From positions 8,990,001 through 9,054,000 of the forward strand of contig NC_135250.1 of assembly GCF_964204865.1 (NCBI RefSeq): a stretch of DNA of 64,000 nucleotides, written 5' to 3'. Positions within the stretch are counted from its first letter, which is position 1. Each line of letters begins with the position of its first letter. Both the position numbers and the translations under genes were made by a program. Positions 484 to 23,913 of this stretch are shown here, in pieces. The DNA is from Styela clava (lineage: Eukaryota > Chordata > Ascidiacea > Stolidobranchia > Styelidae). The notes beneath the pieces are model-generated. The model was not told the origin of the DNA and did no database searches. It was given only the letters and a program-made list of their open reading frames with translations.

Positions 484-559
484 CTACGGAAAAAAAACAA
501 TATTTTAAACAATCAGGAAAGACAAAACGACTTTACTCATTCATTCAGAGATATCTAAA

Positions 560-3293
560 ATGTGTACCTGGCAGGGAGTGTATATTTTGTTATGCATTTC
601 ATTTCTAATAACATGCGGGAAACCCGAGGGCGATAATTTCCCACCTGGTCATATGGAACCTCTTGGATCTCACATGCCTCCCATTGAGATAGAAGTCAGA
701 GAATCAGTACCAAATCCAGTTGAATTTTATCAAAAATATATCAAACCTGGCAAGCCGGTTGTTATGAAAGAAGCGGCAAAAGTGTTCGAAAACTATAAGA
801 CATGGAAGAACGACACTTACTTAAGGTATGTGACAAAACCAATGTACAATTTATAAGCAAAATATACATTCAATAATTTTTAAAGATTGCATCTATCGCA
901 GTTTGTATTTTTAATAAAATATTATCCCGATAAATTCTAAATTCCTGGCAATAAAGTAGTTGCATTTCATACGAGTGTACGAAATTATAACGAACGAACC
1001 AGTCTAATGGTTCATGTCTATTAATTACCCCTCAATCAATAGTATTTCATTTCATTTAGAGAAAAGTACGGAGATTGGTTCATATCTGTAGAAGTTGGAA
1101 AATATGAAGGAAGTGTATTTGGAAATGATATTGAAATTCCATTCCGAATATTTATTGATTATTACAAAGAAAAAAATATCTATTTAATTACAGATATTGT
1201 GAAAGATAATCCTATGAGAGGTAATCAAATCTATCATTCGACATAATCTCAACTTTGATGCGTTTAAAAAATGCGGCACCAGATAGAAACAAGTGTCAAA
1301 CCCCGTCTCCACTGACCGTGTTTCTCTTTGACTTTTGTCTATACTCTATCCTATGCAGATGGCTGATTATTCGATCTCACTCCTCAACGAATAATCTTTG
1401 TAATACCGTCATTTTCTATTTTCTTGAATCATTGGGATCACTTAAAGAATTTTAATGTTTATCTGTATTAATATGTTGTCAAGATTGCCCCGACTGCATA
1501 TGGCTTCCTGAAAATTCCTACTACCAAGTACCAACTTTTAGAAGTTTGGAATTCCGATCCTATAAAGTTCAAAATTTCACCTCCGACAGACAGGCCTTTA
1601 TTATTGAATTTTGGCCCTTCAGTAGCAAGCTTGCTAAATATTCGGCTATAATATGTTACGAATAATATTATTATAAACCGCATTTCCACCTTCTATTTTT
1701 TCAACCATTGTGTTTATTTTTAGAATTCTAACATTTACTTGACCCAATATGTCTCTTTGCTCCAACCGCATAAATACCGGCAAAATATCTATTATGAGTA
1801 TAGTCGAAGTAAATTGCATTTGATTCTTATCCAGATGAAGTCTCACTACTGAAATCGATGGCCTGTGGAGGATATGCTGAACTCGTGGATAGCGTTATGT
1901 TGTTTTACTCTTCTGCAAGCACACAATCTGCTTTACATATGGACGACATTGAAAACATGCATTGCCTCTTCGACGGACAAAAAGAATGGGTTCTCTTTGA
2001 CAGAGTAAGATGGATAACATGCAATTATTGAGTGTATGTTACCAACAACAATGTTTTGAATTATCTCTATGTTAGGTGTTTGGAAATGATAACAAAAACA
2101 ATAAAGTCTGAACTTTATAAGATTGTATGATGAATAAAGAGATTGGTTTATACGAATATTTCAACTTTTTGGTATGATATTTTATTTTAGAAAATCCGCG
2201 ACAAAATCCCACGCATGGAAAACTATCCACAATACGGAGCCATGGATTGTAGAAAAGTAGATATGCTCAAATATCCTATTATACAAGAATTACCTTGGCA
2301 TCATGCATTTTTGGAACCTGGAGATTGTCTGTTCGTTCCATGGGGGTAAGCATAATTTATAATATAAATAAATCAAGGAAAACAATAAAAGGATTCTTTC
2401 ACTCAGTTTATTATATATATGTTCTTTCGTATAATTCCATATATTACAATTTATACTATGCCTTTACCAGTTGGCCGCACCACGTAAAGTCATACGGGAA
2501 TAAAAGAAACATGGCTGTAGCTATTTGGTTTGGACCAGTAGAAAGACCGCGTACAACCGATTGTCCGGATAATATGGAAGATTTACCGTCGTCTGTGCCA
2601 CTAGGTCGTCGATACATAGAAAAGATTTCAAAGCTTAGGTGAGATTTATCTTTTGCTCTCATTATAAATATGTAAGTAACCATTCTGAAGGATAACAATG
2701 AATATTTCTGTAAACAAACGGTATGCGACATCAACTAGTCATCCACATAAAATGAGGTGTAACAGGGGCCGTTTTTTTAGAAAAACATCATGTAAATATG
2801 CAATATTACATTAAGTAAAGTTGACCGTTAATGTTCTTTACATTACAGAAATCACTTGTATGGATATTTTGCAGAAGATAGCGATAAATGCAGCAAGGAT
2901 AGATTTATGCAAATAAAAATGGATCAGTTGGATGAATTGGAAAAACGTAACGAAACTGAGAAAGAGATTTTATTGTCATCATTTGATGTTCTCGACTTAA
3001 ACAAAGATGGTGAGAAATTTTTTTACACCAATGTTCTCTGGTGTAAATTCCTAACACAGTTTAATGAGTGCATTGTGAAAAATAATGAAAGTAGGTCTCT
3101 TCCTCAGTGACAACCCTTACGTCACTCCTCACAAACTTAATACATACCCAATGTATTTGCAGGATTCATTTCAATAGAAGAACTCGAAAATATACCAAAA
3201 GATTGTGAAATGCTGGATAAAATGGAAATAAAAGAAAATATTTATCATGAACATAGGGTGGTTAAAAAAACTAGGAAATCTGACGAGTTATAA
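560..3293 (+). CDS. Secreted/ER JmjC oxygenase with EF-hand, array copy 1
   Basis: Seven coding exons: 560-825, 1060-1220, 1835-2004, 2191-2345, 2471-2638, 2849-3009 and 3163-3293. All introns are GT-AG and phases join without a stop, giving 403 residues. The N-terminus is a hydrophobic signal peptide (VYILLCISFLITC). The JmjC/cupin domain has HMD at residues 177-179 and PWGWPHHV at 249-256, so H177, D179 and H254 are the likely Fe(II) ligands of a 2-oxoglutarate dioxygenase. Residues 356-367 (DLNKDGFISIEE) form a canonical EF-hand loop, split by the last intron. The protein ends SDEL, a KDEL-like ER-retention tail. Sequons at N84 and N341 fit a luminal location. An AATAAA lies at 3359-3364. 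The substrate is unknown: protein hydroxylation is a family-based guess. Human JMJD8 (ER lumen) and P4HTM (ER, EF-hand plus hydroxylase) are functional analogues only, not claimed orthologues. Confidence 0.88.
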
Positions 3294-3433
3294 CAATGCA
3301 ACAATTTTACTATAAAGGCCATTGAATATTATTGCATTACTTTAATTTTCTCTCAAGTAATAAACATAGAGATAGAACAGTGATTAAATATTACACGTGT
3401 GTTTTATTGATCCTTCAATTCGTTCTGATAGGA

Positions 3434-3790
3434 AAAAGAATAAGCTAAGTCAGAATGCAGTTGAGTTCAATAAACTCGGCATGGACTTCAAAATCGAGCC
3501 CAGTTAGGCTATTGTCTAAAATCTGAAATGTATTCACCCAAGGCAATGTAACGAAATATCTTTTTCCTAAAATGGAATAGAATAAGGCACAAGATCGATG
3601 CATCGTGCTAAGCGATATGAATCCTTTTAGTCTCCCAATGTTGATTGACCTTCGTTGCATAGCAGGTTGAACGCCAGTAAGAGATATGATAAGATAATCG
3701 CCAGCCTCGTTATAGTCACCAGGTGGTTCACATATCATCTGGTTAGTCACAGATTTTCTCGTCACCAAGTTCTATCCACCTGATATATAC
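3434..3790 (-). other. Conserved block downstream of JmjC copy 1, open on minus strand
   Basis: A minus-strand reading of 107 codons (3445-3768) is open here. The block recurs at 11809-12150 and, more diverged, at about 24050-24420, just after each JmjC gene. In unit 2 a 1-bp insertion shifts the frame, and in unit 3 the same frame has a stop part-way. The shared peptide core (EPP.DY.EAGD.L..SLTG.QPAMQRR) is kept while codons differ, which hints at past coding. I do not recognise the domain. It could be a decayed exon or a transposon fragment. Confidence 0.35.
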
Positions 3791-5083
3791 AATGAAAGTA
3801 ATTCCATATTCAACATTTTCACACGACGCTTACGCACGTCGATGGCTTAGAACAAGGCCCTACACAAGCAGTCATTAATGTTTAACGATATGTAAGGAGC
3901 TGCTATTTATTGAGAGAATCGGAATCTTGCATGTTCGCCTTGGCTACTCAATTCATTAAACCCTGGGCAAGGTGATTGGCATGGGATTTGAACGTGGGAT
4001 GATTGGTATATAAATTCTTTCGGCATGCATACGTAACAAGTAAGCTGCTGATAATTGTTGCCGCTCTGACTTCAAAACGACTTATTGATAAATAAAGTAA
4101 ATATACTTTTTTTAAAACTAAGTAAAGTTTTAAATGTGAAAAGATGGCTGCATTGACAATTCTTCCACGCGTCATGGTCTGTGTGCATTGAAGCATAGGA
4201 AAAGGCGGAATATTACCAAACTTTTGCCCCCCTGTTTCCGTGTGCTTCGCCCAAAACGTCGTTTCCACGCGAGGCTATGTAGTTTGTTTGACACGACGGT
4301 TCGTTTTCACAGAACAGCAGAAAGTAGACAATCGAAACGGCGCTGCCGGTACCGCATTTATGGTAACTGTAGTCGCTATCGAGTCAGGCAGGTATTGTTA
4401 CTACATTAGTTCGTACGCCTATTATTGTACTCAGGTACTGGTGTACCGGTAACGTTATGCCCTACGTTCCTCATTAATTAGGGATGATAATGAATGTACT
4501 ATAGCAATTACATATTGTAGTCTGACAGTCCGTTCTGACAGTTCTACGACCCCTCTACATTTGCTTAGTGCTAACGTGAAGTTTTCTGCGTTTTTAGATC
4601 ATCCCAGTCTATACCAAGTTACCTTGTGTATTTTGTATATATTTTATTGTGCCATTGCTTGTTCTCTGGTTGACGAAACAATAAATCTCTCACTCTCACA
4701 CACAGTATTATGCTACTAATTCAAATTATTTTTCGGCTGTTGTAGAATCATGAATGTTAACGTCAAGGCCCCCATTACCGCAACCCACGCAAACTCAGCC
4801 TACCCACTACCAACTAACACGAGCATATTCGTGATATTTAGAGGTTCATTTTTAGTTTCATTTGACGGGAGTCAGTCGTCTGCCCAAGAGTTAGGGTCCC
4901 ACAGGGACGTTTCTTTTTCGTTGACGCTGTAGTAAAAGGAGTTTTCGCTACGTAAAATCAAAATATAAGACGAAAGTCGTGCTGTATCAGAAGAAATGGG
5001 GGTGACTGTAATAGGAACGAGCTTCAAGGAATAAAATATTGGCCGAAAAGACAAATTGTGTACTGCCAAATTATTTTACAAGG
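3791..5083. other. Unclassified unit sequence between conserved block and pogo relic
   Basis: This stretch is duplicated at about 12151-13457. A somewhat GC-richer part (4150-4440) has short overlapping open frames but no domain I recognise. The part from about 4480 to 4740 has an AATAAA (in gacgaaacaataaatc) followed by a CT/CA-rich tail and may be the end of a retroelement. No gene can be supported. Confidence 0.3.
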
Positions 5084-5395
5084 ATGGAAAAATTTCTATA
5101 CGCCAGGAAGAGAGTAAATTGGAAGAACAGCGAGGAAATGAAAAAAGCATGTGATGCGGTGAAAAGAGGAAAATGCCGATGAAAGGTGCAGCAAAGAAAT
5201 ATGGGGAGTCCAAAAAAACGTTGAGTGATTGGTTGCACAACAAGACTAAGTTGAATGCTAGAGTTGGGCCCCCGACAAAAATAAGCGAAGATTACGAAAG
5301 CCCTGGTAAAGAGGAGACTGGAGCCATGATAATCCCATATTAGTTTTATTAGATGGTCATGCGTCACACAATTCGCATTAATTAAGATTAAAGCC
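5084..5395 (+). pseudogene. pogo/Tigger-type transposase relic (psq HTH plus DDE fragment), unit 1
   Basis: The reading from 5084 encodes a psq/CENP-B-like helix-turn-helix (KRVNWKNSEEMKKACDAVKR), then a stop. After a frameshift it continues with KGAAKKYG and TLSDWLHNKTK. After another shift, at about 5328-5392, comes ILVLLDGHASH, the pattern around the second catalytic Asp of DDE_1 pogo/Tigger transposases. Most of the catalytic domain between these parts is missing. This is an internally deleted, frameshifted relic, duplicated at 13458-13757. Confidence 0.65.
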
Positions 5396-5437
5396 CACAT
5401 ATTTTTCCAAAAAATAGAGGGGAAGAGAATTTCCCGT

Positions 5438-5945
5438 TGCTCAATAGAATTCATAGTCACAGACATGCGCCCCATTTCAAATGTGGAAGGTGGAGCATTT
5501 CAAAAGCTGATGTCAGTAATGCAATCGAACTTTGTAAAACCATCCCGGAGAACAATAACACGCAAAATAGATTCAAAATTTGACGATGTAAAAGTTAAGC
5601 TGAAAGCCAAAGTTGACAAAGCAAACTGTATATCGCTCACTACCGACTTACCGTCTAACATAAACTTGGAATCTTTTCTTGGCATCACAGCACATTTCTG
5701 TTCAGAAGATTTTGTTCTTCACGGTCATATCCTAGGTGTGAAGCCTGTACATGAAAGGCCCACTGCAGACGATATTGTAGAATGAATTTGTGAAACTGCT
5801 TAGCAGTACTCTTGAAAATAAAGTTACAGCTTTAGTCCCAGATAACGGCTCTAATATGTTAAAACCAAGAAAAATTCTGAAGACTGACAAAAATGGAGAA
5901 GGCGTTTCCTGTGCAGAACACTTTGACTTTGAGTACTTTTATTTT
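5438..5945 (+). pseudogene. hAT (ZBED-like) transposase fragment, unit 1
   Basis: The open frame (start codon at 5465, readable from about 5438) has IVTDMRPISNVEGGAFQKLM and SRRTITRKI, followed by an LTTD and NLESFLGITAHF region. This is typical of the core of hAT transposases of the ZBED type. It stops at 5785. A +1 frame carries on with FVKLLSSTLENKVTALVPDNG (about 5788-5945), matching the DN region of the same domain. It lacks the BED finger and C-terminus, so it is dead. Unit 2 has the same relic, broken by a newer element. Confidence 0.65.
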
Positions 5946-7141
5946 TTGGTACATCGCCAGTAACCCGGGCCTCCCCCACGCAAGAGGGCTAAAACAGTAT
6001 TTTTCCGTGTAGCATCTTCACATAAACTTACAAGTTTTTTAATGATTCACAACGCATATCTATATATTAAATTAATAATACATGAGTGCTGAATATTGTT
6101 TCGTAGGCTATGTTATGTGCGTGTGTCACGTACACTGTATGTTATAGCCTACACCATAATATACCCCGAAAATGCAGCAACGATTGGAGAGAATCGGCAT
6201 TTGTACTCTGAATATAATGCTAGTAAGGCTATATCATAATCTCATATAGTGAGATAATGTAATGGCCCTCCAATGGTAATTTACAACCAATCTGTTGGTA
6301 AATAGTGCGAAGCCCTAAACAAAAATTCCATAAGAATAGCATACAAGAAGTACGAGGACGAATTGATTAAATTACTGTGCTAAGAGGGTAAAATGAAACC
6401 ATACTTTGGATGTGTCATATATAATTTCTAATGATGATTTTCAGAAAACTGTATGGAAATTTTGCAACAAGGAAGTTCTTTCTATTTTAAAATAAAAAAC
6501 TGATGGAGCAAACAACTGTGTATTTGCAAATTGAGAATATGAATACATTTATGCAAATAAAGCTCGCTCTTTAAGTGCTTGCTGTCACAACTCACCTATT
6601 TTGGACATATGCTTCTTCATAATTTATAGCAGTGACATTAACCGAAAAATCAAAGTTGTAGTTAATGTTTTGATTTAGCAGCAATTTCCAGGAAATCGGT
6701 CTTGGTCAGTCGAGACCACGTACTTGCCTCCAGATAGCAAACAAATCGCCTATTTGCAATTCTATTCGAAAATAGGATCAAAAGTTTATTATCTACTAAT
6801 CTCAGTATGCCATTCCAATTTGTTAACTTACAAAATAAAGATATCAGGCAACAAAATTTTGAGATTTGAAAACGTAACTTTGCAACGAAGCCATAAGGGT
6901 TGAAATAGATATCGAATTATGCTATTTTAATATATTCCTAGATGGACACTCGCTAGTTTAAAGTCGAATAAACGTAAAAGATTCAAAATATACACCCCAC
7001 TACGCTCATTCACTAAGAGATTGAGTTCAAAAAAAGAACTTGTTATATTGTCGTTACATCTGAGTGGAATAGTTTGTTTCGACTTTTTATTTTGGGCCAT
7101 GTAATTTCAGCGTTCCCATAATGTCTGCACATACATGTTCG
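5946..7141. other. Unit sequence without recognisable gene
   Basis: AT-rich DNA repeated at about 17736-18960. I see no coding exon, RNA gene or clear element ends. It may be the remaining part of an old transposon. Confidence 0.3.
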
Positions 7142-7435
7142 AGGAAATCTTTGGCCACAAATGCGTTTAGGAAGCGGGTTAAAGATGGGTTACTGGTGAT
7201 TTGGGTGATGGTAGTTCTACGCGCTCGTTCTCAACATAAAATTGCTGTTTCGGCGCTGACTAATTGATCGAGAAGAACCCGGAACATAATTCAATTCAAA
7301 TGCGTTCAGGAATTGGGTTAAAGACGGGCCTCTGATGATTTGAGTGATGGGCGTTCTACTTTTTTGTTCAAATGCGTTCAGGAATTGGGTTAAAGACGGG
7401 TCACTGGTGATTTGAGTGATGGACGTTCTACTCTC
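7142..7435. repeat. Three imperfect tandem repeats of about 65-75 bp
   Basis: The motif (aaatgcgttcaggaattggg, then ttaaagacgggtcactggtg, then gatttgagtgatgg and gttctac) occurs three times with small changes, starting near 7157, 7298 and 7368. The same array is present in unit 2 (about 18963-19240). Confidence 0.6.
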
Positions 7436-7558
7436 TTCTCAGCTTAAAAGCAATATGGCGCTCACTAATTAGTCAGGAAGAACCCATGACAACACGAAAA
7501 CAATCAAGTGAAGCGTGTATTACTAGATATGAGAATAAAAATTCATAACAATAGTATA

Positions 7559-7853
7559 ACGAGAATACCGGTCAGAGACCGAAGACTTATCGATCGAAAG
7601 TTAGGGGATCCCCCAAAACAGCGCTCTTACTCCATAGTGACACCTTGTGTCCCATCACCAATTAATTAATAACTCGCTAATTATACGACATAATTCATCC
7701 AAAATCAATAGGCTTCTGGTCCGACATATGATGAATGCACATGCAAAATCTGGAGCAGATTCAATCTCGCTTTCGTGATATATCGCGTGCATCTAACAGA
7801 CAAACAGACAGACAAATACCTATCAACATACTTACCGATTAAAATCGATAAGT
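7559..7853 (+). mobile_element. GACA-microsatellite element, unit 1
   Basis: A 295 bp element starts ACGAGAATA(C/T)CGGTC and ends in a palindromic CTTACCGAT...ATCGATAAGT hairpin. A (CAGA)n tract sits just before the 3' hairpin. Other copies are at 19364-19658, 53831-54093 and, inverted, 61639-62036. The ends are not inverted repeats. A 3' hairpin and an adjacent tetranucleotide tract recall non-autonomous Helitron-like elements, but no TC/CTRR ends are seen. Confidence 0.6.
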
Positions 7854-8937
7854 AACAACACGAAAATGCACACCCTCATAAATACCACGTATAAGTTTTT
7901 GAAAACGTGTATTAGAACTGATATCAGTACAAGCTATTCGAATCAGTTTTAGCGTAAATATATACTACTACGGTTTTATTGAGCATTGGTTATAAAATCG
8001 AATTGATATAAAATATTAAGGACGCCACGTGAATTTTGTTTGTTTTTGCTTTCTGGTAACCAACCAACATCGTGTCATGCAGCATGGCATCCTTACTTTG
8101 TCCAAGTATTTCCTCTTTTTTGGAAAACTAATCTTGCTGTTGACTAATATCCGGCACATCCTTCCTTATCCTATCCATATGGAGTGAGGTAAAGCCAGAT
8201 AAGTCGTTATAACCCTTTCTTGTGACATCACGGTTTACTAAAAGAATGTAGATATAGCATATAGCGCATACAAGTTCAGGAATTTTAATTAATTAAAAAT
8301 ATGTGGATTCTAATATATATCCTTTAATGTTATTTGAAAATTCCATGTCAACGAACGATACAGAATAAACAATGGCCGGTTTCAAGCTTGTAGTGCAAGT
8401 ATAATTAAAAGTTTTAGAATGTTATTTACATGGAATCCAGGCAAACGGTAGATGCAATGTAGATGTTATTCGCTGAAAATTTTGGCGATGTGATTGTCGT
8501 CACAAATGCACTTGCCAGCTTGGTTCAATAGTTTGGTAATTTGACTGCAGAACAATGCTTCGAGAGTGGAAATCATTTCTCAACTATGAAAAGAGTTGGT
8601 TGGATTGAAAAGAGTTTTTATGCGAATTTTGTTTATTCTCAAACCAAATTTTTCAAGCCTGCTTGTGATGGATTAACATTCTTGAAGAAATTCAACGAAA
8701 ATTGACGCAAAAATCTTGTTCGGTCACATTAAGTCTAATGTTTATATTTTCCCTTATGCCATTTCCCCCTATTTAGCCATGACCAACATCCTAGGCTTCA
8801 ATACCATTATACATAATATCGCTTCAATATCAGCAAATACTTGAATAAGTAGCCCTCTAAACTCTGGAAAATTACCAATATTTCAAACAAACAGGAAAGA
8901 CAAAACGACTTTACTCATTCATTCAGAGATATCTAAA

Positions 8938-11658
8938 ATGTGTACCTGGCAGGGAGTGTATATTTTGTTATGCATTTCATTTCTAATAACATGCGGGAAA
9001 CCCGAGGAAGATGGTTACCCACCTGGCCATATGGAACCTCTTGGATCTCACATGCCTCCCATTGAGATAGAAGTTAGAGAGTCAGTACCGAATCCAGTTG
9101 AATTTTATCAAAAATATATCAAACCTGGCAAGCCGGTTGTTATGAAAGAAGCGGCAAAAGTGTTCGAAAACTATAAGACATGGAAGAACGACACTTACTT
9201 AAGGTATGTGACAAAACCAATGCACAATTTATAAGCAAAATATACATTCAATAATTTTTAAAGATTGCATCTATAGCAGTTTGTATTTTTAATAACATAT
9301 TATCCCGATAAATTCTAAATTCCTGGAAATAAAGTAGTTGCATTTCATACGAGTGTACGAGATTATAACGAACGAACCAGTCTAATGGTTCATGTCTAAT
9401 AATTACCCCTCAATCAATAGTATTTCATTTTATTTAGAGAAAAGTACGGAGATTGGTTCATATCTGTAGAAGTTGGAAAATATGAAGGAAGTGTATTTGG
9501 AAATGATATTGAAATTCCATTCAGAATATTTATTGATTATTACAAAGAAAAAAATATCTATTTAATTACAGATATTGTGAAAGATAATCCTATGAGAGGT
9601 AATCAAATCTATCATTCGACATAATCTCAACTTTGATGCGTTTAAAAAATGCGGCACCAGATAGAAACAAGTGTCAAACCCCGTCTCCACTGACCGTGTT
9701 TCTCTTTGGCTTTTGTCTATACTCTATCCTATGCAGATGGTTGATTATTCGATCTCACTCCTCAACGAATAATCTTTGTAATATCGTCATTTTCTATTTT
9801 CTTGAATCATTGAGATCACTTAAAAAATTTTAATGTTTATCTGGATTAATATGTTGTCAAGATTGCCCCGACTGCATATGGCTTCCTGAAAATTCCTACT
9901 ACCAACTTTTAGAAGTTTGGAATTCCGATCCTATAAAGTTCAAAATTTCACCTCCGACAGACAGGCTTTTATTATTGAACTTTGGCCCTTTAGCAAGCTT
10001 GCTAAATATTCGGCTATAATATGTTACGAATAATATTATTATAAACCGCATTTCCACCTTCTATTTTTTCAACCATTGTGTTTATTTTTAGAATTCTAAC
10101 ATTTACTTGACCCAATATGTCTCTTTGCTCCAACCGCATAAATACCGGCAAAATATCTATTATGAGTATAGTCGAAGTAAATTGCATTTGATTCTTATCC
10201 AGATGAAGTCTCACTACTGAAATCGATGGCCTGTGGAGGATATGCTGAACTCGTGGATAGCGTTATGTTGTTTTACTCTTCTGCAAGCACACAATCTGCT
10301 TTACATATGGACGACTTTGAAAACATGCATTGCCTCTTCGACGGACAAAAAGAATGGGTTCTCTTTGACAGAGTAAGATGGATAACATGCAATTATTCAG
10401 TGTATGTTACCAACAACAATGTTTTGAATTATCTCTATGTTAGGTGTTTGGAAATGATAACAAAAACAATAAAGTCTGAACTTTATGGGATTGTATGATG
10501 AATAAAGAGATTGGTTTATACGAATATTTCAACTTTTTGGTATGATATTTTATTTTAGAAAATCCGCGACAAAATCCCACGCATGGAAAACTATCCACAA
10601 TACGGAGCCATGGATTGTAGAAAAGTAGATATGCTCAAATATCCTATTATACAAGAATTACCTTGGCATCATGCATTTTTGGAACCGGGAGATTGTCTGT
10701 TCGTTCCATGGGGGTAAGCATAATTTATAATATAAATAAATCAAGGAAAACAATAAAAGGATTCTTTCACTCAGTTTATTATATGTTCTTTCGTATAATT
10801 CCATATATTACAATTTATACTATGCCTTTACCAGTTGGCCGCACCACGTAAAGTCATACGGGAATAAAAGAAACATGGCTGTAGCTATTTGGTTTGGACC
10901 AGTAGAAAGGCCGCGTACAACCGATTGTCCGGATAATATGGAAGATTTACCGTCGTCTGTGCCACTAGGTCGTCGATACATAGAAAAGATTTCAAAGCTT
11001 AGGTGAGATTTATCTTTTGCTCTCATTATAAATATGTAAGTAACCATTCTGAAGGATAACAATGAATATTTCTGAAAACAAACGGTATGCGACATCAACT
11101 AGTCATCCACATAAAATGAGGTGTTAACAGGGGCCGTTTTTTTAGAAAAACATCATGTAAATATGCAATATTACATTAAGTCAAGTTGACCGTTAATGTT
11201 CTTTTCATTACAGAAATCACTTGTATGGATATTTTGCAGAAGATAGCGACAAATGCAGCAAGGATAGATTTATGCAAATAAAAATGGATCAGTTGGATGA
11301 ATTGGAAAAACGTAACGAAACTGAGAATGAGATTTTGTTGTCATCATTTGATGTTCTCGACTTAAACAAAGATGGTGAGAAATTTTTTTACACCAATGTT
11401 CTCTGGTGTAAATTCCTAACACAGTTTAATGAGTGCATTGTGAAAAATAATGAAAGTAGGCCCCTTACTCAGTGACCCCCCTTACGTCACTCCTCACAAA
11501 TTTAATACATACCCAATGTATTTGCAGGATTCATTTCAATAGAAGAACTCGAAAATATACCAAAAGATTGTGAAATGCTGGATAAAATGGAAATAAAAGA
11601 AAATATTTATCATGAACATAAAGTGGTTAAAAAAACTAGGAAATCTGACGAGTTATAA
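8938..11658 (+). CDS. Secreted/ER JmjC oxygenase with EF-hand, array copy 2
   Basis: Seven coding exons with lengths identical to copy 1: 8938-9203, 9438-9598, 10203-10372, 10559-10713, 10835-11002, 11214-11374 and 11528-11658. They give 403 residues with no stop or frameshift. Signal peptide, iron-binding HMD and PWGWPHHV, the EF-hand loop DLNKDGFISIEE and the SDEL tail are all kept. It differs from copy 1 at only a few residues (GDN/F to EDG/Y after the signal peptide; I181 to F; K to N in exon 6; R to K near the end). An AATAAA lies at 11724-11729. Both copies look intact, so both may be expressed. Role as for copy 1. Confidence 0.88.
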
Positions 11659-11808
11659 CAATGCAACAATTTTACTATAAAGGCCATTGAATATTATTGC
11701 ATTACTTTAATTTTCTCTCAAGTAATAAACATAAAGATAGAACAGTGATTAAATATTACACGTGTGTTTTATTGATCCTTCAATTCGTTCTGATAGGAAA
11801 AAGAATAA

Positions 11809-12150: not shown

Positions 12151-13457
12151 TATATACAATGAAAGTAATTCCATATTCAACATTTTCACACGACGCTTAT
12201 TCACGTCGGTGGCTTAGAACAAGGCCCTACACAAGCAGTCATTGATGTTTAACGATATGTAAGGAGCTGCTATTTATTGAGAGAATCGGAATCTTGCATG
12301 TTCGCCTTGCCTACTCAATTCATTAAACCCTGGGCAAGGTGATTGGCATGGGATTTGAACGTGAGATGATTGGTATATAAATTCTTTCGGCATGCATACG
12401 TAACAAGTAAGCTGCTGATAATTGTTGCCGCTCTGACTTCAAAACGACTTATTGATAAATAAAGTAAATATACTTTCTTTAAAACTAAGTAAAGTTTTAA
12501 ATGTGAAAATATGGCTGCATTGACAATTCTTCCACGCGTCATGGTCTGTGTGCATTGAAGCATAGGAAAAGGCGGAATATTACCGAACTTTTGGCCCGCT
12601 GTTTCCGTGTGCTTCGCCCAAAACGTCGTTTCCACGCGAGGCTATGTAGTTTGTTTGACACGACGGTTCGTTTTCACAGAACAGCAGAAATTAGACAATC
12701 GAAACGGCGCTGCCGGTACCGCATTTATGGTAACTGTAGTCGCTATCGAGTCAGGCAGGTATTGTTACTACATTAGTTCGTACGCCTATTATTGTACTCA
12801 GGTACTGGTGTACCGGTAACGTTATGCCCTACGTTCCTCATTAATTAGGGATGATAATGAATGTACTATAGCAATTACATATTGTAGTCTGACAGTCCGT
12901 TCTGACAGTTCTACGACCCCTCTACTTTCTGGCATTTGCTTAGTGCTAACGTGAAGTTTTCTGCGTTTTTAGATCTTCCCAGTCTATACCAAGTTACCTT
13001 GTGTATTTTGTATATATTTTATTGTGCCATTGCTTGTTCTCTGGTTGACGAAACAATAAATCTCTCACTCCCACACACAGTATTATGCTACTAATTCAAA
13101 TTATTTTTCGGCTGTTGTAGAATCATGAATGTTAACGTCAAGGCCCCCATTACCGCAACCCACGCAAACTCAGCCTACCCACTACCAACTAACACGAGCA
13201 TATTCGTGATATTTAGAGGTTCATTTTTAGTTTCATTTGACGGGAGTCAGTCGTCTGCCCAAGAGTTAGGGTCCCACAGGGACGTTTCTTTTTCGTTGAC
13301 GCTGTAGTAAAAGGAGTTTTCGCTACGTAAAATCAAAATATAAGACGAAAATCGTGCTGTATCAGAAGAAATGGGGTGGCTGTAATAGGAACGAGCTTCA
13401 AGGAATCAAATATTGGCCGAAAAGACAAATTGTGTACTGCCAAATTATTTTACAAGG

Positions 13458-13757
13458 ATGTCAAAACCTCGATACGCGGGGAAGAGAGTAAATTGGAAGA
13501 ACAGCGAGGAAATGAAAAAAGCATTTGATGCGGTGAAAAGAGGATAATTGCCGATATAAGGTGCGGCAAAGAAATATGGGGTGTCCAGGAAAACGTTGAG
13601 TGATCGGTTGCACAACAAGACTAAGTTGAATGCTAGAGTTGGGCCCCCGACAAAAATAAGCGAAGATTACGAAAGCCCTGGTAAGGAGGAGGCTGGAGCC
13701 ATGATAATTCCATATTACTTTTATTAGATGGTCATGCGTCACATAATTCGCATTAAT
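13458..13757 (+). pseudogene. pogo/Tigger-type transposase relic, unit 2
   Basis: Copy of 5084-5395. It starts MSKPRYAGKRVNWKNSEEMK, stops after about 31 codons, and shows the DDE fragment (ILLLLDGHASH) near 13706-13757. Its first residues differ from unit 1, which suggests that the unit 1 start has also drifted. Confidence 0.6.
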
Positions 13758-13799
13758 AAAGATTAAAGCCCACATATTTTTCCAAAAAATAGAGGGGAA

Positions 13800-14035
13800 G
13801 AGAATTTCCCGTTGCTTAATAGAATTCATGGTCACAGACATGCGCCCCATTTCAAATGTGGAAGGTAGAGCATTTCAAAAGCTGATGTCAGTAATGCAAC
13901 CGAACTTTGTAATACCATCCCGGCGAACAATAACACGCAAAATAGATTCAAAATTTGACGATGTAAAAGATAAGCTGAAAGTCAAAGTTGACAAAGCAAA
14001 CTGTATATAGCTCACTACAGACTTACCGTCTAACA
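13800..14035 (+). pseudogene. hAT (ZBED-like) transposase fragment, 5' part, unit 2
   Basis: Matches 5438-5661 (VTDMRPISNVEGRAFQKLM), with a stop at about 14008. It is interrupted by the insertion of the hAT element at 14036-15346. The final 8 bases (14028-14035) are that insertion's target-site copy. Confidence 0.6.
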
Positions 14036-14600
14036 CAGGGGTGGGCAACATACGGCCCGCGACGAGATTTTGAACGGCCCGCTGACTGTATCCAACCACA
14101 CCCTGGAATGTGCTCCGACGCATCATTCCTGAAAGTTGCCGATCTACTCTCACCGCACTGTCAGTGCAAGCTGGTAAAATAAACAATTGCCTTAGGGAAC
14201 AAACAATTGCGTTAGCACACTTGTTAAACAAACAATATAAGGTCAAAGCAGAAAGCGTTGTAAACATTCCATAAACATAATCCATATCCACATAAACAGA
14301 TTTATTATTTTGTCAACCAAAAACAAACAGTCATCAATACGAAAAAAATACATAACACAAATAAAATTGCTTCGGTATTGACAGGAGGGAGCGATACGAC
14401 CATGAGGTCATCGAGGTCAACTCCCACCCTATTTTCTGAAGTGATTAAGTTTCACACTGAAGATGACTATTAGAAAAGTTGGTCTGTCAAATAATACTTC
14501 GATGTAATCTAAAATTCGATGTAATCTCAGAAAACTATTGGGGGAGGGCATGTTCTATTGAGAACTCATTTACACAATAAAAGTTCTATATGCTTTAGAT

Positions 14601-14640
14601 CAGTGGTTCCCAACCGTGGACCCGTGCCGGTCCGCGAGGC
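14601..14640 (+). mobile_element. Truncated hAT end nested in the 14036-15346 element
   Basis: CAGTGGTTCCCAACCGTGGA followed by GCCGGTCCGCG is the usual left end of a Charlie-like hAT MITE. No matching GGTTGGGAACCACTG end or 8-bp duplication is seen, so this copy is truncated or rearranged. Confidence 0.45.
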
Positions 14641-14707
14641 TTTTTTGCCGGTCCGCGGAAAATTTCATTTTGTTGTTTTTCTACCGTCTCAATCGCTTTA
14701 CCGAAGT

Positions 14708-15150
14708 CAAAAAGACGAAGTTACGTTGGTTTATTACGCAATTTCTCTTCCGCCGTCATATTGCTGTTGGATACGTGCGGGATGGCCCGGCGACGTCTTG
14801 GCGCCGAGTAATCATAGTTTTCGGTTCATCGCGAAAGCGCTCCGTCAAATCTCGCAAGATTCAGAAGTCTGAAAATCAGCATGCGTGCTTTTACCGTTCT
14901 GCATGCTTTTCTTGATTAATAGGTCAAAGTTATGTTGGTTTATTACGCAATTTCTCCTCCGCCGTCATATTGGTGTTTGATAAGTGCGGTATTAATGGCC
15001 CGGCGACGTCTTGGCGCTGAGTAATCACTTTTTGCTTTTTCGGTTCCGATTCATCGTGAAAGCGCTCCGTCAAATCTCGCAAGATTCAGAAACCTGGAAA
15101 TCAGCATGCGTGCTTTTTCCGCTTTGCATGCTTTTCTTGATTAATCCAAA
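14708..15150. repeat. Two tandem copies of about 215-225 bp inside the hAT element
   Basis: The sequence beginning GTTACGTTGGTTTATTACGC near 14719 recurs as GTTATGTTGGTTTATTACGC near 14929. Both run through GGCCCGGCGACGTCTTGGCG to GCATGCTTTTCTTGATTAAT, with scattered differences. Confidence 0.7.
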
Positions 15151-15354
15151 TCCATTCAAAGAAAAGGTTGTGAATATTTCTTTGTTTAAACCAGAATGTA
15201 TCAAGATAGACAGAATAATATTCCAGAGCATCACCATGAGCATCTAATAAAGATTGGATACCGAAGAAATTTTGTAATCATCCGGCCCGCCGAGTACTTC
15301 ATTTTCCCACATCTGGCCCGCCGACTAGAGAAGTTGCCCACCCCTGGTCTAACA

Positions 15355-15605
15355 TAAACTTGGCATCACAGCACATTTCTGTTCAGAAGATTTTGTTCTT
15401 CACGGTCATATCCTAGGTGTGAAGCCAGTACATAAAAGGCCCACTGCAGACGATATTGTAGAATGAATTTGTGAAACTGCTTAGCAGTACTCTTGAAAAT
15501 AAAGTTACAGCTTTAGTCCCAGATAACGGCTCTAATATGTTAAAACCAAGAAAAATTCTGGAGACTGACAAAAATGGAGAAGGCGTTTCATGTGCAGCAC
15601 ACTTT
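15355..15605 (+). pseudogene. hAT (ZBED-like) transposase fragment, 3' part, unit 2
   Basis: Continues the relic broken at 14035, matching about 5662-5920, but lacks a short piece present in unit 1 (between ACTTGG and GGCATCACAG). The reading FVKLLSSTLENKVTALVPDNG is visible at about 15465-15530. It is broken a second time by the LTR element at 15606. Confidence 0.6.
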
Positions 15606-15994
15606 TATAGGGCAACAAAGATTCGACCCTATCTGCGTGTCCACACTCCCGTGTTATTGAACACACGTTAACAGAGTGTAACTCCGATCTTGACTCCTTC
15701 AGAGGTCAAAAAGCACACAATGTATTGAATGCCAATTGTTATATTGTAAAGTTGCACAATCGAATTGATCCAAATAACGAATTACACTTGAAACCTTAAA
15801 GCAAGTATATGTGATGAAACCAAATTTCTAACTAACAAAGAACGGCAAAGACAAGCTACACTGAGCGAGAAAAATATATCATAAAGGAAATGAATTGGGA
15901 CAACGACCTTGTTTCAGGCAAATAACATGCACTACTAACAATAAGTGGTGAAAATATTAAAATACACAGTAACTATCCTTATGTACTTGCTACA
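15606..15994 (-). repeat. 3' LTR (left copy)
   Basis: Direct repeat partner of 17321-17709, same length (389 bp), no difference seen. Because transcription would run on the minus strand, this copy is the 3' LTR. Confidence 0.85.
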
Positions 15995-16143
15995 CAATTC
16001 CCCCCGACAATGAAAAAAAATTAGTTTGCTAATTTTTAAATTTTGTAAGACTAGCTCATAACGATTTCTGATTGAATAATATGTCGTAAAATTTGCCCAT
16101 GTATTGGTGTATTTAATTCTGCATCAAAGTCGCTGATGACCAA

Positions 16144-16931
16144 CTAATGCAACGACACAGGAAAACCAATTTGATTGAGATACCTCCGGTTGAAGGATCT
16201 TTTGCGGTGAAATCTACAGATTTTCACGAAATCTTCGATAACACCCAGAACTAAGCCATTGCGTTTGGACAATCGACTTCTTTCTGCTTTGTAAAATAAT
16301 GAGCGTAATAGTTGATTTGAAGAATATTGTTGACGTTGAGATTTCGTTCGTTGAAAACATTCCTCTAAGCTTTGAAAACCTGTCCAACTCTCGGATTTTT
16401 CAATCTGGGAAGATTGTCCGATGAATTGTAATGTAACAAGAGTGTGGTAGCGTTGAATTTCGGAGAGTCGCCGGCCGTGCAAACTTTCGTATCATCAACG
16501 TTCCAGACAAATGTAAACGCACCTTTCCGGCAAAACCCGGAATTGGGTGAGCATTGGCTTAAATCAGCTAGGGGAGAGTGAAGTTTTCGTGTTATGTGAT
16601 TGAAGTAGAGAGGACCCTTTAACGCGGGCCACGAGTATTCGGGTTCGACTTGGTTTCTAAAGATGCTGCAATAGATGATGATCGACTTGAGAGAAATAAA
16701 GTAGATGTTCGTTCGTACGTTCGTCAAACAATAGGTCGCTAAATGCTGCTTCTTGGTGTAAAAAAATCGGCTTGCGTATATAATATCAATGTTATTTTCT
16801 GCGTAGCTTGCTTTGTCGATAAACACATTTGAAAATCCAGTAATAATATGAAGTTGTCCTGGTAACTTTAAATTGTAATGAGGCGGATCGATCTGCTGAA
16901 GTCCATATCTCTTGATCCGGTTGACACACAA
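16144..16931 (-). CDS. Unidentified minus-strand ORFs inside the LTR element
   Basis: Two overlapping minus-strand frames, 188 codons (16365-16931) and 112 codons (16144-16482), fill the middle of the LTR element. The larger has several cysteines and sequons (NAT, NSS) near its end, which would fit a secreted or envelope-like glycoprotein remnant. No gag zinc knuckle, protease, reverse transcriptase or integrase motif is visible. Its function is unknown and it may be non-coding. Confidence 0.3.
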
Positions 16932-17320
16932 AACATATAGTTGTAATATATAGGTTGATAATGAGACACGAATTCAAAGAATTTGGGCGTTGATGCTTGG
17001 AAAATGAAAATACACTAGCGTGAACTCGGGCGTTAAACTTGAAGAGTTGAAGTTGAGTTAGTGCTGTCTGATCGTAGGAGGTCCTGGTCCAGATTCCTCG
17101 TTTTGAGTCAAAAATCTACCTTGTTCTGGCCTTCTTGACTGCTTAATAAATTGACATACCGCCAAAGACTGCAGTTTGGTTGGTTGCTTGATTCCTGAAA
17201 TGCTGACGTTTTGTCCATTGACTCGGTTAGTGATGAATTTCTTTTCCATTTTGATTGACGAAATTCCAGTTGCTGAATTGAAGTTGATTGCTTATTGATC
17301 ACGAACGGGTATCACCAAAA

Positions 17321-17709
17321 TATAGGGCAACAAAGATTCGACCCTATCTGCGTGTCCACACTCCCGTGTTATTGAACACACGTTAACAGAGTGTAACTCC
17401 GATCTTGACTCCTTCAGAGGTCAAAAAGCACACAATGTATTGAATGCCAATTGTTATATTGTAAAGTTGCACAATCGAATTGATCCAAATAACGAATTAC
17501 ACTTGAAACCTTAAAGCAAGTATATGTGATGAAACCAAATTTCTAACTAACAAAGAACGGCAAAGACAAGCTACACTGAGCGAGAAAAATATATCATAAA
17601 GGAAATGAATTGGGACAACGACCTTGTTTCAGGCAAATAACATGCACTACTAACAATAAGTGGTGAAAATATTAAAATACACAGTAACTATCCTTATGTA
17701 CTTGCTACA
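17321..17709 (-). repeat. 5' LTR (right copy)
   Basis: Direct repeat partner of 15606-15994. The inner edge is followed on the minus strand by TTT and then the putative primer-binding site. Confidence 0.85.
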
Positions 17710-17713
17710 CTTT

Positions 17714-18960
17714 GACTTTGAGTACTTTTATTTTTTGGTACATCGCCAGTAACCCGGGCCTCCCCCACGCAAGAGGGCTAAAACAGTATTTTTCCGTGTA
17801 GCATCTTCACATAAACTTACAAGTTTTTTAATGATTCACGACGCATATCTATATATTAAATTAATACATGAGTGCTGAATATTGTTTCGTAGGCTATGTT
17901 ATGTGCGTGTGTCACGTACACTGTATGTTGTAGCCTACACCATAATATACCCCGAAAATGCAGCAACGATTGGAGAGAATCGGCATTTGTACTCCGAATA
18001 TAATGCTAGTAAGGCTATATCATAATCTCATATAGTGAGATAATGTAATGGCCCTCCAATGGTAATTTACAACCAATCTGTTGGTAAATAGTGCGAAGCC
18101 CTAAACAAAAATTCCATAAGAATAGCGTACAAGAAGTACGAGGACGAATTGATTAAATTACTGTGCTAAGAGGGTAAAATGAAACCATACTTTGGATGAG
18201 TCATATATAATTTCTAATGATGATTTTCAGAAAACTGTATGGAAATTTTGCAACAAGGAAGTTCTTTCTATTTTTAAATAAAAAACTGCTGGAGCAAACA
18301 ACTGTGTATTTGCAAATTGAGAATATGAATACATTTATGCAAATAAAGCTCGCTCTTTAAGTGCTTGCTGTTACAACTCACCTATTTTGGACATATGCTT
18401 CTTCATAATCTATAGTAGTGACATTAACCGAAAAATCAAAGTTGTAGTTAATGTTTTGATTTAGCAGCAATTTCCAGGAAATCGGTCTTGGTCAGTCGAG
18501 ACCACGTACTTGCCTCCAGATAGCAAACAAATCGCCTATTTGCAATTCTATTCGAAAATAGGATCATAAGTTTATTCTCTACTAATCTCAGTATGCCATT
18601 CCAATTTGTTAACTTACAAAATAAAGATATCAGGCAACAAAATTTTGAGATTGGAAAACGTAACTTTGCAACGAAGCCAATTTTTTGAAGTAATCGAATG
18701 AGGGTTGAAATAGATATTGAATTATGCTATTTTAATATATTCCTAGATGGACACTCGCTAGTTTAAAGTTGAATAAACGTAAAAGATTCAAAATATACAC
18801 CCCACTACGCTCATTCACTAAGAGATTGAGTTCAAAAAAAGAACTTGTTATATTGTCGTTACATCTGAGTGGAATAGTTTGTTTCGACTTTTTATTTTGG
18901 GCCATGTAATTTCAGCGTTCCCATAATGTCTGCACATACATGTTCGAGGAAATCTTTGGC
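17714..18960. other. Unit 2 sequence without recognisable gene
   Basis: Counterpart of about 5925-7141, with few base changes and one short insertion near 18680 (GCCAATTTTTTGAAGTAATC). No gene seen. Confidence 0.3.
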
Positions 18961-18962
18961 CA

Positions 18963-19240
18963 CAAATGCGTTTAGGAAGCGGGTTAAAGATGGGTCACTG
19001 GTGATTTGGGTGATGGTAGTTCTACGCGCTCGTTCTCAACATAAAATTGCTGTTTCGGCGCTGACTAATTGATCGAGAAGAACCCGGAACATAATTCAAT
19101 TCAAATGCGTTCAGGAATTGGGTTAAAGACGGGCCTCTGGTGATTTGAGTGACGGGCGTTCTACTTTTTTGTTCAAATGCGTTCAGGAATTGGGTTAACG
19201 GCGGGTCACTGGTGATTTGAGTGATGGACGTTCTACTCTC
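18963..19240. repeat. Imperfect tandem repeats, unit 2
   Basis: Copy of the three-repeat array at 7142-7435, with the same motif order. Confidence 0.55.
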
Positions 19241-19363
19241 TTCTCAGCTTAAAAGCAATATGGCGCTCACTAATTAGTCAGGAAGAACCCATGACAACAC
19301 GAAAACAATCAAGTGAAGCGTGTATTACTAAATATGAGAATAAAAATTCATAACAATAGTATA

Positions 19364-19658
19364 ACGAGAATACCGGTCAGAGACCGAAGACTTATCGATC
19401 GAAAGTTAGGGGATCCCCCAAAACAGCGCTCTTACTCCATAGTGACACCTTGTGTCCCATCACCAATTAATCAATAACTCGCTAATTATACGACATAATT
19501 CATCCAAAATCAATAGGCTTCTGGTCCGACATATGATGAATGCACATGCAAAATCTGGAGCAGATTCAATCTCGCTTTCGTGATATATCGCGTGCATCTA
19601 ACAGACAAACAGACAGACAAATACCTATCAACATACTTACCGATTAAAATCGATAAGT
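19364..19658 (+). mobile_element. GACA-microsatellite element, unit 2
   Basis: Same 295 bp element as 7559-7853, carried along by the unit duplication rather than inserted independently. Confidence 0.6.
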
Positions 19659-19940
19659 AACAACACGAAAATGCACACCCTCATAAATACCACGTATAAG
19701 TTTTTGAAAACGTGTATTAGAACTGATATCAGTACAAGCTATTCGAATCAGTTTTAGCGTAAATATATACTACTACGGTTTTATTGAGCATTGGTTATAA
19801 AATCGAATTGATATAAAATATTAAGGACGCCACGTGAATTTTGTTTGTTTTTGCTTTCTGGTAACCATCCAACATCGTGTAATGCAGCATGGCATCCTTA
19901 CTTTGTCCAAGTATTTCCTCTTTTTTGGAAAACTAATCTT

Positions 19941-20476
19941 GCTGTTGACTAATATCCGGCACATCTTTCCTTATCCTATCCATATGGAGTGAGGTAAAGC
20001 CAGATAAGTCGTTATAACCCTTTCTTGTGACATCACGGTTTACTAAAAGAATGTAGATATAGCATATAGCGCATACAAGTTCAGGAATTTTAATTAATTA
20101 AAAATATGTGGATTCTATTATATATCCTTTAATGTTATTTGAAAATTCCATGTCAACGAACGATACAGAATAAACAATGGCGGGTTTCAAGCTTGTAGTG
20201 CAAGCATAATTGCTGTTGACTAATATCCGGCACATCCTTCCTTATCCTATCCATATGGAGTGAGGTAAAGCCAGATAAGTCGTTATAACCCTTTCTTGTG
20301 ACATCACGGTTTACTAAAAGAATGTAGATATAGCATATAGCGCATACAAGTTCAGGAATTTTAATTAATTAAAAATATGTGGATTCTAATATATATCCTT
20401 TAATGTTATTTGAAAATTCCATGTCAACGAACGATACAGAATAAACAATGGCGGGTTTCAAGCTTGTAGTGCAAGT
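19941..20476 (+). repeat. 271 bp tandem duplication at the unit 2/3 junction
   Basis: GCTGTTGACTAATATCCGGC begins at 19941 and again at 20212, and the following 260 bp match almost exactly. Unit 1 has the sequence once (about 8130-8400). The second copy leads straight into the 5' flank of the third JmjC gene. Confidence 0.85.
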
Positions 20477-21013: not shown

Positions 21014-23913
21014 ATGTGTAGGCAGGGAATGTATGTTTTGTTATGCATTTCATTTCTAATAACATGCGGGAAACCCGAGGGAGATGGTTACCCACCTGGC
21101 CATATGGAACCTCTTGGATCTCACATGCCTCCCATTGAGATAGAAGTCAGAGAGTCAGTACCAAATCCAGTTGAATTTTATCAAAAATATATCAAACCTG
21201 GCAAGCCGGTTGTTATGAAAGAAGCGGCAAAAGTGTTCGGAAACTATAAAACATGGAAGAACGACACTTACTTAAGGTATGTGACAAAACCAATGTACAA
21301 TTTATTAAGCAAAATATACACGCATTCAATAATTTCGATAAAGATTGCATCTATAGCAGTTTATATTTTTAATAAAATATTATCCCAATAAATTCTAAAT
21401 TCCTGGCAATAAAGTAGTTGCATTTCATACGAGTGTACGAAATAATAACGAATGAACCAGTCTAATGGTTCATGTCTATTAATTACCCTTCAATCAATAG
21501 TATTTTATTTTATTTAGAGAAAAGTACGGAGATTGGTTTACACCTGTAGAAGTTGGAAAATACGAAGGAAGTGTATTTGGAAAGAATATTGAAATTCCAT
21601 TCAGAATATTTATTGATAATTACAAAGAAAAAAATATCTATTTAATTACAGATATTGTGAAAGATAATCCCATGAGAGGTAATCAAATCTATGATTCAAC
21701 TTATTGCGTTTAAAAATTGGCTACTTGAAAATTCCTACTTCATTTTGGAAGTCTGGAATTCCAATCCGATAAAGTTTAAAATTTCAGCACTGATGTCTTC
21801 AAAAATACGACTCAAGTTATAAAAAATGCCCAATTCCGATTCCACAGGCCGGCTTTCTTATTGACATTTGGCCATACGATAGCAGTCTTAGCAGGCAGAG
21901 TAATTGAATTTAATCTGTTACAAATAATTTTATTATTAACCTCATTCCCTCTTTCTATATTTTTCAATCATTGTGTTTTATTTTTAAAATTCTAACATTT
22001 ACTTGCATCAACGTGTCGTCGAGTTTTGCTCCAGCTGCATAAATAACGTCGAAGTATCTATCATATATGAGTATAGTTGAAGTAAATTGCATTTGATTTT
22101 AATCCAGATGAAGTCTCACTACTGAAATCGATGGCTTGTGGAGGATATGCTGAACTTGTGGATAGTGTCATGTTGTTTTATTCTTCCGCGAGCACACAAT
22201 CTGCTTTACATATGGACGACTTTGAAAACATGCATTGCCTCTTCGACGGACAAAAAGAATGGATTCTCTTTGACAGGGTGAGATGGATAGGATGCATCAT
22301 TGAGTGTATCTTACTAACAACAATGCATATATAGAATTATCTCTGTGATTATGTGTTTGAAAATGATACCAAAACAATAAAGCCTAAACTGTGCCGGATT
22401 GTAAGATTATACAAATATATAAACTTTGTGGTATGATATTTTATTTTAGAAAATCCGCGATAAAATCCCACGCATGGAAAACTTTACGCAATACGGAGCC
22501 ATGGATTGTAGAAAAGTAGATATGCTGAAGTATCCTATTATACAAGAATTACCTTGGCATCATGCATTTTTGGAACCTGGAGATTGTCTGTTCGTTCCAT
22601 GGGGGTAAGATCAAGTTCCAATATATATGAATAAACCAAGAAAAACAATGAAAGGATTCTTTCACTCAGTTTATTATATGTTTTTTCGTATAACTGATAA
22701 ATGTAATAACTTATATTTATGTAAAGTCTGAATATTATTTGCTCTGCACGAAATGCATCATTTCGAAGTGCTTATGATATATAACAATAAAAATTTAAAA
22801 AAAATCCATATATTACAATTTATACTCTGCCTTTACCAGTTGGCCGCACCACGTAAAGTCATACGGGAATAAAAGAAACATGGCTGTAGCTATTTGGTTT
22901 GGGCCAGTAGAAAGACCGCGTACAACCGACTGTCCGGATAATATGGAAGATTTACCGTCGTCTGTGCCACTGGGTCGTCGACAAGTACAAGCGCTTGCAA
23001 AACTTCGGTGAGATAAACCTTTTGCTTTCGTTATAAAAATCAAATGACCATTGCAAAGGATAACAATGAGTATTTTTGTAAATAAACAGTATGCCACAGC
23101 AATTAGCCATCCGGATAAATGCGGAGAGGTCGGTTTTTGAAAAAAGCTTCGATTAACTATGCAATATTAAAGTCATGTTAACCGTTAATCATCTTTTCAT
23201 TACAGAAATCACTTGTATGGATATTTTGCGGAAGGTAGTGATAAATGCAGTAAGGATAGATTTATGCAAATAACAATGGATAAGTTGGATGAAGTAGAAA
23301 GACGTAACGAGACGGAGAAAAAGATGCTAATGGCATCATTTGATGTTCTCGACTTAAACAAAGATGGTAAGAGTTTTTCTTCACGTCAACCTTCTCTAAT
23401 GTAAATTCCTAACACAGTGCAATAAGTGCATTGTGAAAAATGATACCAGTATTATTACTTATGCGTTAGATTTAAGTCCCTCGGTGACCAGCCGTGCGTC
23501 TCCTCACAAAATTAGGTACTCCCGAAGTATGTGAACCAAGATGGCAGACACCGGAACGTAGTATGTGTACCAGGTTATAGTTAGACTATAATTTCGGGTA
23601 CAAATACGGCGGGAGTCACTTGGCTAGTCCTCGAACTCGTAATGGTACTAAAATAAACTGGAATAAAATTATGGTCTAACCCTAACCTGGTACACATGAT
23701 ACGTTCCGGTGTCCGCCATCTTGGTTCACATACTTCGGGAGTACCCAAAATTGAACGTACTACTTACCCAATATATTTGCAGGATTCCTTTCAACAGAAG
23801 AACTTGAAAATATACCAGAAGATAGTGATATGCTGGATGACATGGAAATAAAAGAAACTCTATATTATGAGCATAAAGAAGTTAAAAAGACTAGGAAATT
23901 TGATGAGTTATAA
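21014..23913 (+). CDS. Secreted/ER JmjC oxygenase with EF-hand, array copy 3 (diverged)
   Basis: Seven coding exons: 21014-21276, 21518-21678, 22108-22277, 22450-22604, 22840-23007, 23206-23366 and 23783-23913. They give 402 residues; exon 1 is one codon shorter (MCRQG against MCTWQG). Signal peptide, HMD, PWGWPHHV and the EF-hand are kept. The loop reads DLNKDGFLSTEE, all metal-binding positions conserved, and the tail is FDEL instead of SDEL. It differs from copies 1 and 2 mainly in exons 5-7, for example RQVQALAKL for RRYIEKISKL. Introns 3 and 4 are clearly diverged and intron 6 holds a 231 bp foldback element. Base changes are spread without a break in frame, which suggests a selected, older paralogue. 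Confidence 0.87.
23515..23745. mobile_element. Foldback MITE (full-length family member) in intron 6 of copy 3
   Basis: Long terminal inverted repeats: GGTACTCCCGAAGTATGTGA at the left and its complement at the right. The flanks CAAAATTA and CAAAATTG are an 8-bp target duplication with one mismatch. This is the 231 bp long form. Short relatives are at 25049, 32994 and 39864, and a fragment at 45531. Confidence 0.8.

Follow-up and report, generated by a model that had tools for sequence, protein, structure and literature searches.

A tandem array in the ascidian Styela clava encoding candidate endoplasmic reticulum-luminal JmjC oxygenases with a C-terminal EF-hand module

A stretch of 64,000 nucleotides of the Styela clava genome (NC_135250.1, positions 8,990,001 to 9,054,000, referred to as the window) carries three tandem genes, A, B and C, whose products combine a JmjC domain, an EF-hand and signals for the endoplasmic reticulum (ER), which raises the question of what kind of protein the array encodes. 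The best full explanation, with a probability of roughly 0.7, is that the genes are tandem copies of a single member of a family of Fe(II)/2-oxoglutarate (2OG) oxygenases that occurs in animals and acts in the ER lumen. All three genes have the same orientation (plus strand) and consist of seven exons each, separated by GT-AG introns throughout. Gene A (560..3293; exons 560-825, 1060-1220, 1835-2004, 2191-2345, 2471-2638, 2849-3009, 3163-3293) and gene B (8938..11658; exons 8938-9203, 9438-9598, 10203-10372, 10559-10713, 10835-11002, 11214-11374, 11528-11658) each encode 403 amino acids ending in SDEL, and gene C (21014..23913; exons 21014-21276, 21518-21678, 22108-22277, 22450-22604, 22840-23007, 23206-23366, 23783-23913) encodes 402 amino acids ending in FDEL. 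The frames remain open after splicing, in agreement with the three intact genes of a preliminary description of this DNA. A database search with the 403-residue protein, as proposed there, returned an exact match to the product of gene A (100% over 403 amino acids), the S. clava NCBI record "bifunctional peptidase and (3S)-lysyl hydroxylase Jmjd7-like", so that the annotation has the same first exon as the gene A model. Exon joins were modelled for genes A, B and C only.

The coding sequence of gene B is 98.5% identical to that of gene A, and that of gene C is about 93% identical to both. Nonsynonymous and synonymous differences number 7 and 11 between A and B, 46 and 40 between A and C, and 43 and 41 between B and C, compared with an expectation of about 80% nonsynonymous (P = 1.1e-4, 1.3e-8 and 1.3e-9, respectively, for the depletion of amino acid changes). 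The nonsynonymous to synonymous rate ratio (dN/dS) among the copies is 0.17-0.26. Because the differences between copies are poor in amino acid changes, all three genes appear to be maintained under purifying selection, and this selection together with the open frames ruled out a reading of the array as pseudogenes.

A Pfam scan, which covered proteins A and C, identified Cupin_8 (E = 8.7e-27 in A, 7.2e-26 in C) and JmjC_2 (about 1e-5). An alignment with JMJD5 places residues H177, D179, H254 and K192 of protein A at the corresponding positions of the iron and 2OG sites. The HxD of the iron site (H177, D179) is encoded at 1936..1944 in gene A and, by hand derivation from the gene models, at 10304-10312 in gene B and 22209-22217 in gene C, and the distal ligand H254 at 2478..2480 in gene A (all on the plus strand). 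Within an alignment of 34 family proteins (A3, see below), H177, D179 and the 2OG lysine K192 are present in 34 of 34 rows, and H254 in 32 with two gaps. A structure model of protein A with a JmjC match over residues 41-272 predicts a double-stranded beta-helix of the JMJD5/JMJD7/FIH type. These results bear out the JmjC domain with an HxD...H triad that had been described; an active-site geometry lacking the triad, which had been named as a point that would count against it, is not what was found, as judged by alignment and fold match.

The N-terminus of protein A contains a hydrophobic stretch (560..640, plus strand, approximately residues 1-20, the end being approximate) with a hydropathy peak of 2.94 and a helix over residues 2-19 in the model, which is a putative signal peptide. 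At the other end, the gene models place SDEL at 3279..3290 (gene A) and 11644-11655 (gene B), and FDEL at 23899-23910 (gene C), all on the plus strand. All three proteins thus end in -DEL, and the residue at position -4 is S, S and F in A, B and C rather than K, H or R.

The JmjC domain is followed by a canonical 12-residue EF-hand loop with acidic ligands, DLNKDGFISIEE in proteins A and B and DLNKDGFLSTEE in protein C. In gene A the loop is encoded at 2994..3182 and split by intron 6 (2994-3009, 3163-3182), and the same split is found in gene B (11359-11374 and 11528-11547) and gene C (23351-23366 and 23783-23802), all on the plus strand. EF-hand_5 (PF13202) matches protein A above the cut-off (27.2 bits) and protein C with 24.6 bits against a cut-off of 25.9. 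When protein A was shuffled 20,000 times, an EF-loop pattern of our own design arose in 119 of the shuffled sequences. The claim of one canonical EF-hand loop stands for A, B and C, but the supposedly single loop appears to be the latter half of a C-terminal EF-hand pair (approximately residues 302-369 of protein A in the structure model) with a degenerate first hand and a canonical second one. Two structure models display the pair-like helix-strand-helix order, the first half lacking a canonical loop, as read from secondary-structure strings. Matches of the EF-hand pair model number 14 of 34; fold listings are dominated by the JmjC domain, and EF-hand rows missing there carry no evidence.

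Profile searches identified a total of 35 family proteins including gene A, 20 of which come from Styela, Ciona, Phallusia, Clavelina, Owenia, Paralvinella, Porites, Hydractinia, Clytia, Dysidea, Liolophura and Patella. The protein searches depend on shared 5-residue words (2, 32 and 11 matches); none of the named matches belongs to the vertebrates or the arthropods, which with this method is no proof of absence. Two weak matches (P0036 and P0037) contain neither the HxD pattern nor an -EL end and were kept outside the family count. The alignments comprise 22 of 32 proteins (A2), 34 of the 35 family proteins (A3, P0028 excluded) and 28 of the 35 (A4). The HxD is present in 34 of the 35 family proteins, and invariant residues in the 34 rows of A3 are H177, D179, N183, K192, C153, C186 and C245, with C282 a cysteine in 31 rows and gapped in three. 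Four such conserved cysteines would suit an oxidizing lumen. A glycosylation sequon at A3 column 106 is shared by 18 of the 34 proteins and is absent from gene A. A strongly hydrophobic N-terminus is found in 30 of the 35 proteins, the remaining five starting inside or after the conserved motif. An -EL end is found in 29 of the 35, comprising every protein that reaches past the EF-hand, while the other six are only 241-316 amino acids long. The tail is of the K/H/R-x-EL type in 25 of the 29; the rest are SDEL (gene A and P0026) and NDEL and QDEL (both in Ciona). Chance as an explanation for this set of motifs is very unlikely and was ruled out because ER signals, JmjC domain and EF-hand are conserved across the 35 proteins.

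Five further S. clava genes contain the same kind of parts, giving eight in all. An intronless relative of 699 amino acids at C8:5517000-5523000 (L029:849-2948, minus strand) has a hydrophobic N-terminus, a JmjC domain, a KTEL tail and three EF-hand-like loops recognized by eye, with Pfam stretches at 370-390 and 610-626. The exons of the other four were left unjoined and their tails were sought by scanning downstream for -EL frames: two C13 genes have the loops DQNNDTALTRID and DQNKDTELTILD and KDEL tails, and a C8 tandem pair near 17.11 Mb has the loops DRNGDGVVTSTE and DKNKDGYISNKE with KEEL and REEL tails. The scanned tails are supported by their likeness within pairs (QHEKDEL and QHGKDEL on C13; WAPQYSNLP and WAPQYSDLP upstream of KEEL and REEL on C8). 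Overall, an -EL end is found in eight out of eight S. clava genes (four from the frame scan), and only the three of the array have a non-basic residue at -4.

Several observations weigh against an active, calcium-linked ER oxygenase in every member of the family, and in the array in particular. P0028 lacks both iron histidines while retaining the EF loop and KDEL, and is likely a pseudoenzyme by its sequence. The sponge protein P0020 has a degenerate sequence (DPGCNGKLLVSK) at the aligned EF loop, with a looser match at 375. Three of the six short proteins, the Ciona records P0009, P0013 and P0014 (two of them named isoform X2), end before the EF-hand and tail, and splicing may therefore make these parts optional. 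Within the array, protein C stays below every EF-hand cut-off of Pfam, and the EF-hand pair is read from secondary-structure strings only. A3 column 268 is N in 30 of 31 ungapped rows, gene A being the exception (A, B and C read AVAIW there), and the residues before the HxD are SSASTQ in the array versus SSGGTK in the family. Together with the non-basic -4 residues and the long stem branch of the array (1.23-1.24 in two trees), these unusual residues suggest that the array copies may be changed or weakened.

Some of the same observations would fit a catalytically silent luminal chaperone or scaffold resembling JMJD8, in which the EF-hand would serve Ca2+ buffering or partner binding. JMJD8 itself has HxH in place of HxD and is suspected by its authors, in the available part of their report, not to be a hydroxylase (PMC5684140); P0028 lacks the iron histidines, and the array copies have unusual active-site neighbors. 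A pure scaffold would have no need of the HxD that is kept in nearly all family proteins, nor of a 2OG lysine kept in every A3 row, from sponge to ascidian, and this explanation is considered unlikely.

The tails raise a second alternative, namely that the KDEL receptor fails to retrieve the array copies, which would then work beyond the ER as secreted or granule-stored oxygenases, for example in hemocyte granules or the tunic. A single KDEL-receptor locus was found in the S. clava genome (exons unjoined), and it keeps D50, N54, E117 and W120 (human numbering). Human cells retrieve KDEL, RDEL and HDEL but not ADEL and DDEL; the gatekeepers D50 and E117 of the human receptor exclude the latter two, position 54 also plays a part and W120 is in contact with the residue at -4, according to the available text of PMC8248988. 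The ER-entry and retrieval-type signals of the preliminary description are supported by sequence; SDEL and FDEL fall outside the major mammalian retrieval signals KDEL, HDEL and RDEL given in that source. Because the gatekeeper residues are conserved in the S. clava receptor and the -4 position is S or F, the array copies are expected to be retained less tightly than the products of the other five genes, to judge by these residues. All three copies nevertheless retain -DEL, polar N or Q at -4 in two of four tailed Ciona proteins suggests that ascidians may tolerate such residues, and neither SDEL nor FDEL occurs in the available text of PMC8248988, leaving secretion or storage quite unlikely.

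The preferred explanation, an ER-luminal oxygenase family, would operate as follows. The protein would enter the ER through its signal peptide and fold into a JMJD5-like double-stranded beta-helix, probably stabilized by disulfides, in which H177, D179 and H254 would hold Fe(II) and K192 and its neighbors 2OG, and a side chain of secretory proteins would be hydroxylated. The EF-hand pair would bind luminal Ca2+, most likely aiding structure, dimerization or substrate access, and activity may be tied to the Ca2+ filling of the ER. The -EL tail would return the protein from the Golgi, a return that is probably weaker in the array copies with S or F at -4. Of the calcium-tuned luminal hydroxylase of secretory proteins that had been envisaged earlier, the JmjC domain, the ER signals and the EF-hand are supported by sequence, whereas hydroxylation and Ca2+ tuning are predictions. 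The earlier picture needs amendment on three points: an ER-luminal JmjC protein was already known (JMJD8), the tails are not of the major type, and the single EF loop looks like one half of a pair.

The array itself is the product of a tandem duplication (1..20211, blastn) in which unit 1, starting about 420 bases to the left of the window and extending to 8406, is 95-98% identical to unit 2 (7985-20211). Beyond the units, 8134-9617 is 97% identical to the segment 20210-21697, which holds the start of gene C, and the remainder of gene C matches A and B with 78-86%. Gene C (window 20210-23913) is in this sense a mosaic, its upstream part and exons 1 and 2 being 97% identical to those of gene B and the remainder 78-86%, suggestive of gene conversion or a duplication breakpoint within intron 2. 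On these blastn identities, A and B are best described as recent copies and C as an older remainder joined to a recent 5' part. No further close copies came up in a search of the genome, which yields minimum counts. The second duplication unit alone contains a hAT-like insertion (14036-15346) with perfect 14-bp terminal inverted repeats (CAGGGGTGGGCAAC) and GTCTAACA at both flanks, and two 390-bp direct repeats (15606-15995 and 17321-17710) that are 100% identical, resemble long terminal repeats and enclose about 1.3 kb. Intron 6 of gene C carries an 88-nt inverted repeat (23507-23753, 90% complementary) resembling a miniature inverted-repeat transposable element. Elsewhere in the window are an EPS8 domain exon (46872-47243, plus strand; PF22975, E = 8.5e-22) and a weak zinc-dehydrogenase-like exon (27668-28036, plus strand; PF00107, E = 0.011, under the cut-off).

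A more specific role can be proposed for the array in S. clava, as the missing arginyl and lysyl hydroxylases of the styelins, for which the available published text, PMC10608444 included, names no enzyme. The proposal is based on fold relatives named as arginyl (JMJD5) and lysyl (JMJD7) hydroxylases, on an apparently shared compartment, and on the tripling in S. clava, the altered active-site neighbors and the loosened tail. Its only basis is that location, fold and species coincide; the family reaches well past the animals known to us as styelin makers, and the four 3,4-dihydroxyphenylalanine (DOPA) residues of styelin D would presumably call for a different enzyme, making the proposal a long shot. 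If it were true, the animal-wide family would represent a Ca2+-linked arginine and lysine hydroxylation system of the secretory pathway. A family that has the full triad in nearly all members from sponge to ascidian, an EF-hand module and a retrieval-type tail has been catalogued under JMJD5 and JMJD7 names. Its existence predicts that secretory proteins of invertebrates undergo a hydroxylation not yet explored and supplies candidate enzymes for the hemocyte peptides of Styela, which are heavily hydroxylated. It also makes it possible to ask in a natural setting whether Ca2+ in the ER is able to gate a 2OG oxygenase that does not have the prolyl 4-hydroxylase fold.

Among known systems, ordinary membership of JMJD7 or JMJD5, suggested by the NCBI names and the fold similarity, is highly improbable, as S. 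clava has separate JMJD7 (L001, E = 6.2e-90 to JMJD7, compared with 1.8e-10 for gene A) and JMJD5 (L003, E = 7.6e-81) genes and the family stands apart in trees. The first tree separates 27 family rows from TYW5, JMJD5, L006 (called JMJD4 by eye) and L004 with a support of 100/100 but lacks JMJD7; the second (29 rows, with JMJD7 and P0036 included and L006 omitted) places the five references on one side with 84/81, a split that is not starred and comes with long-branch warnings, its JMJD7 row being the frame of L001 with the N-terminus missing. In contrast to the array proteins, the frame of JMJD5 (KDM8, an arginyl hydroxylase in PDB records) stops directly after the JmjC domain without an EF-hand or -EL, and that of JMJD7 (a (3S)-lysyl hydroxylase according to NCBI) likewise lacks an EF-hand and an -EL tail.

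AspH presumably belongs to another sequence family than the array proteins. Both would be of the ER-linked 2OG oxygenase type, but AspH, which acts on secretory-type domains, is membrane-anchored and carries a TPR domain, as described in the available part of PMC6817910. JMJD8, described in 2017 as the first JmjC protein of the ER lumen, shares a signal peptide and a JmjC domain with the array, so that an ER-luminal JmjC protein as such is not unprecedented, although JMJD8 lacks HxD; it has a histidine in place of the iron-site aspartate and no second domain, and the terms "KDEL" and "EF-hand" do not occur in the available text of the report (PMC5684140). It was later reported as an AKT1 demethylase (available part of PMC9820096). 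Going by its published description, the HxD of 34 of the 35 family proteins and the EF-hand set JMJD8 apart, and membership was rejected. No published description of the combined JmjC, EF-hand and ER-signal architecture was found in the literature searched, which mostly excludes subscription journals.

The closest functional parallel is P4H-TM, a transmembrane ER 2OG oxygenase with EF-hands and a Ca2+ Kd of 23 uM, an affinity within the range of ER Ca2+, whose EF domain lies near the active site, is inserted in the prolyl 4-hydroxylase catalytic domain and has two working loops (available part of PMC7948501). In the array proteins the apparent EF-hand pair instead follows the JmjC match, on its C-terminal side, and has one canonical loop, and membership was rejected on this arrangement. 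That the array represents a different fold branch from P4H-TM, as first suggested, is supported by sequence, the array encoding a JmjC protein with ER signals and an EF-hand. By analogy, P4H-TM is a precedent for the Ca2+-linked logic proposed here and not for membership.

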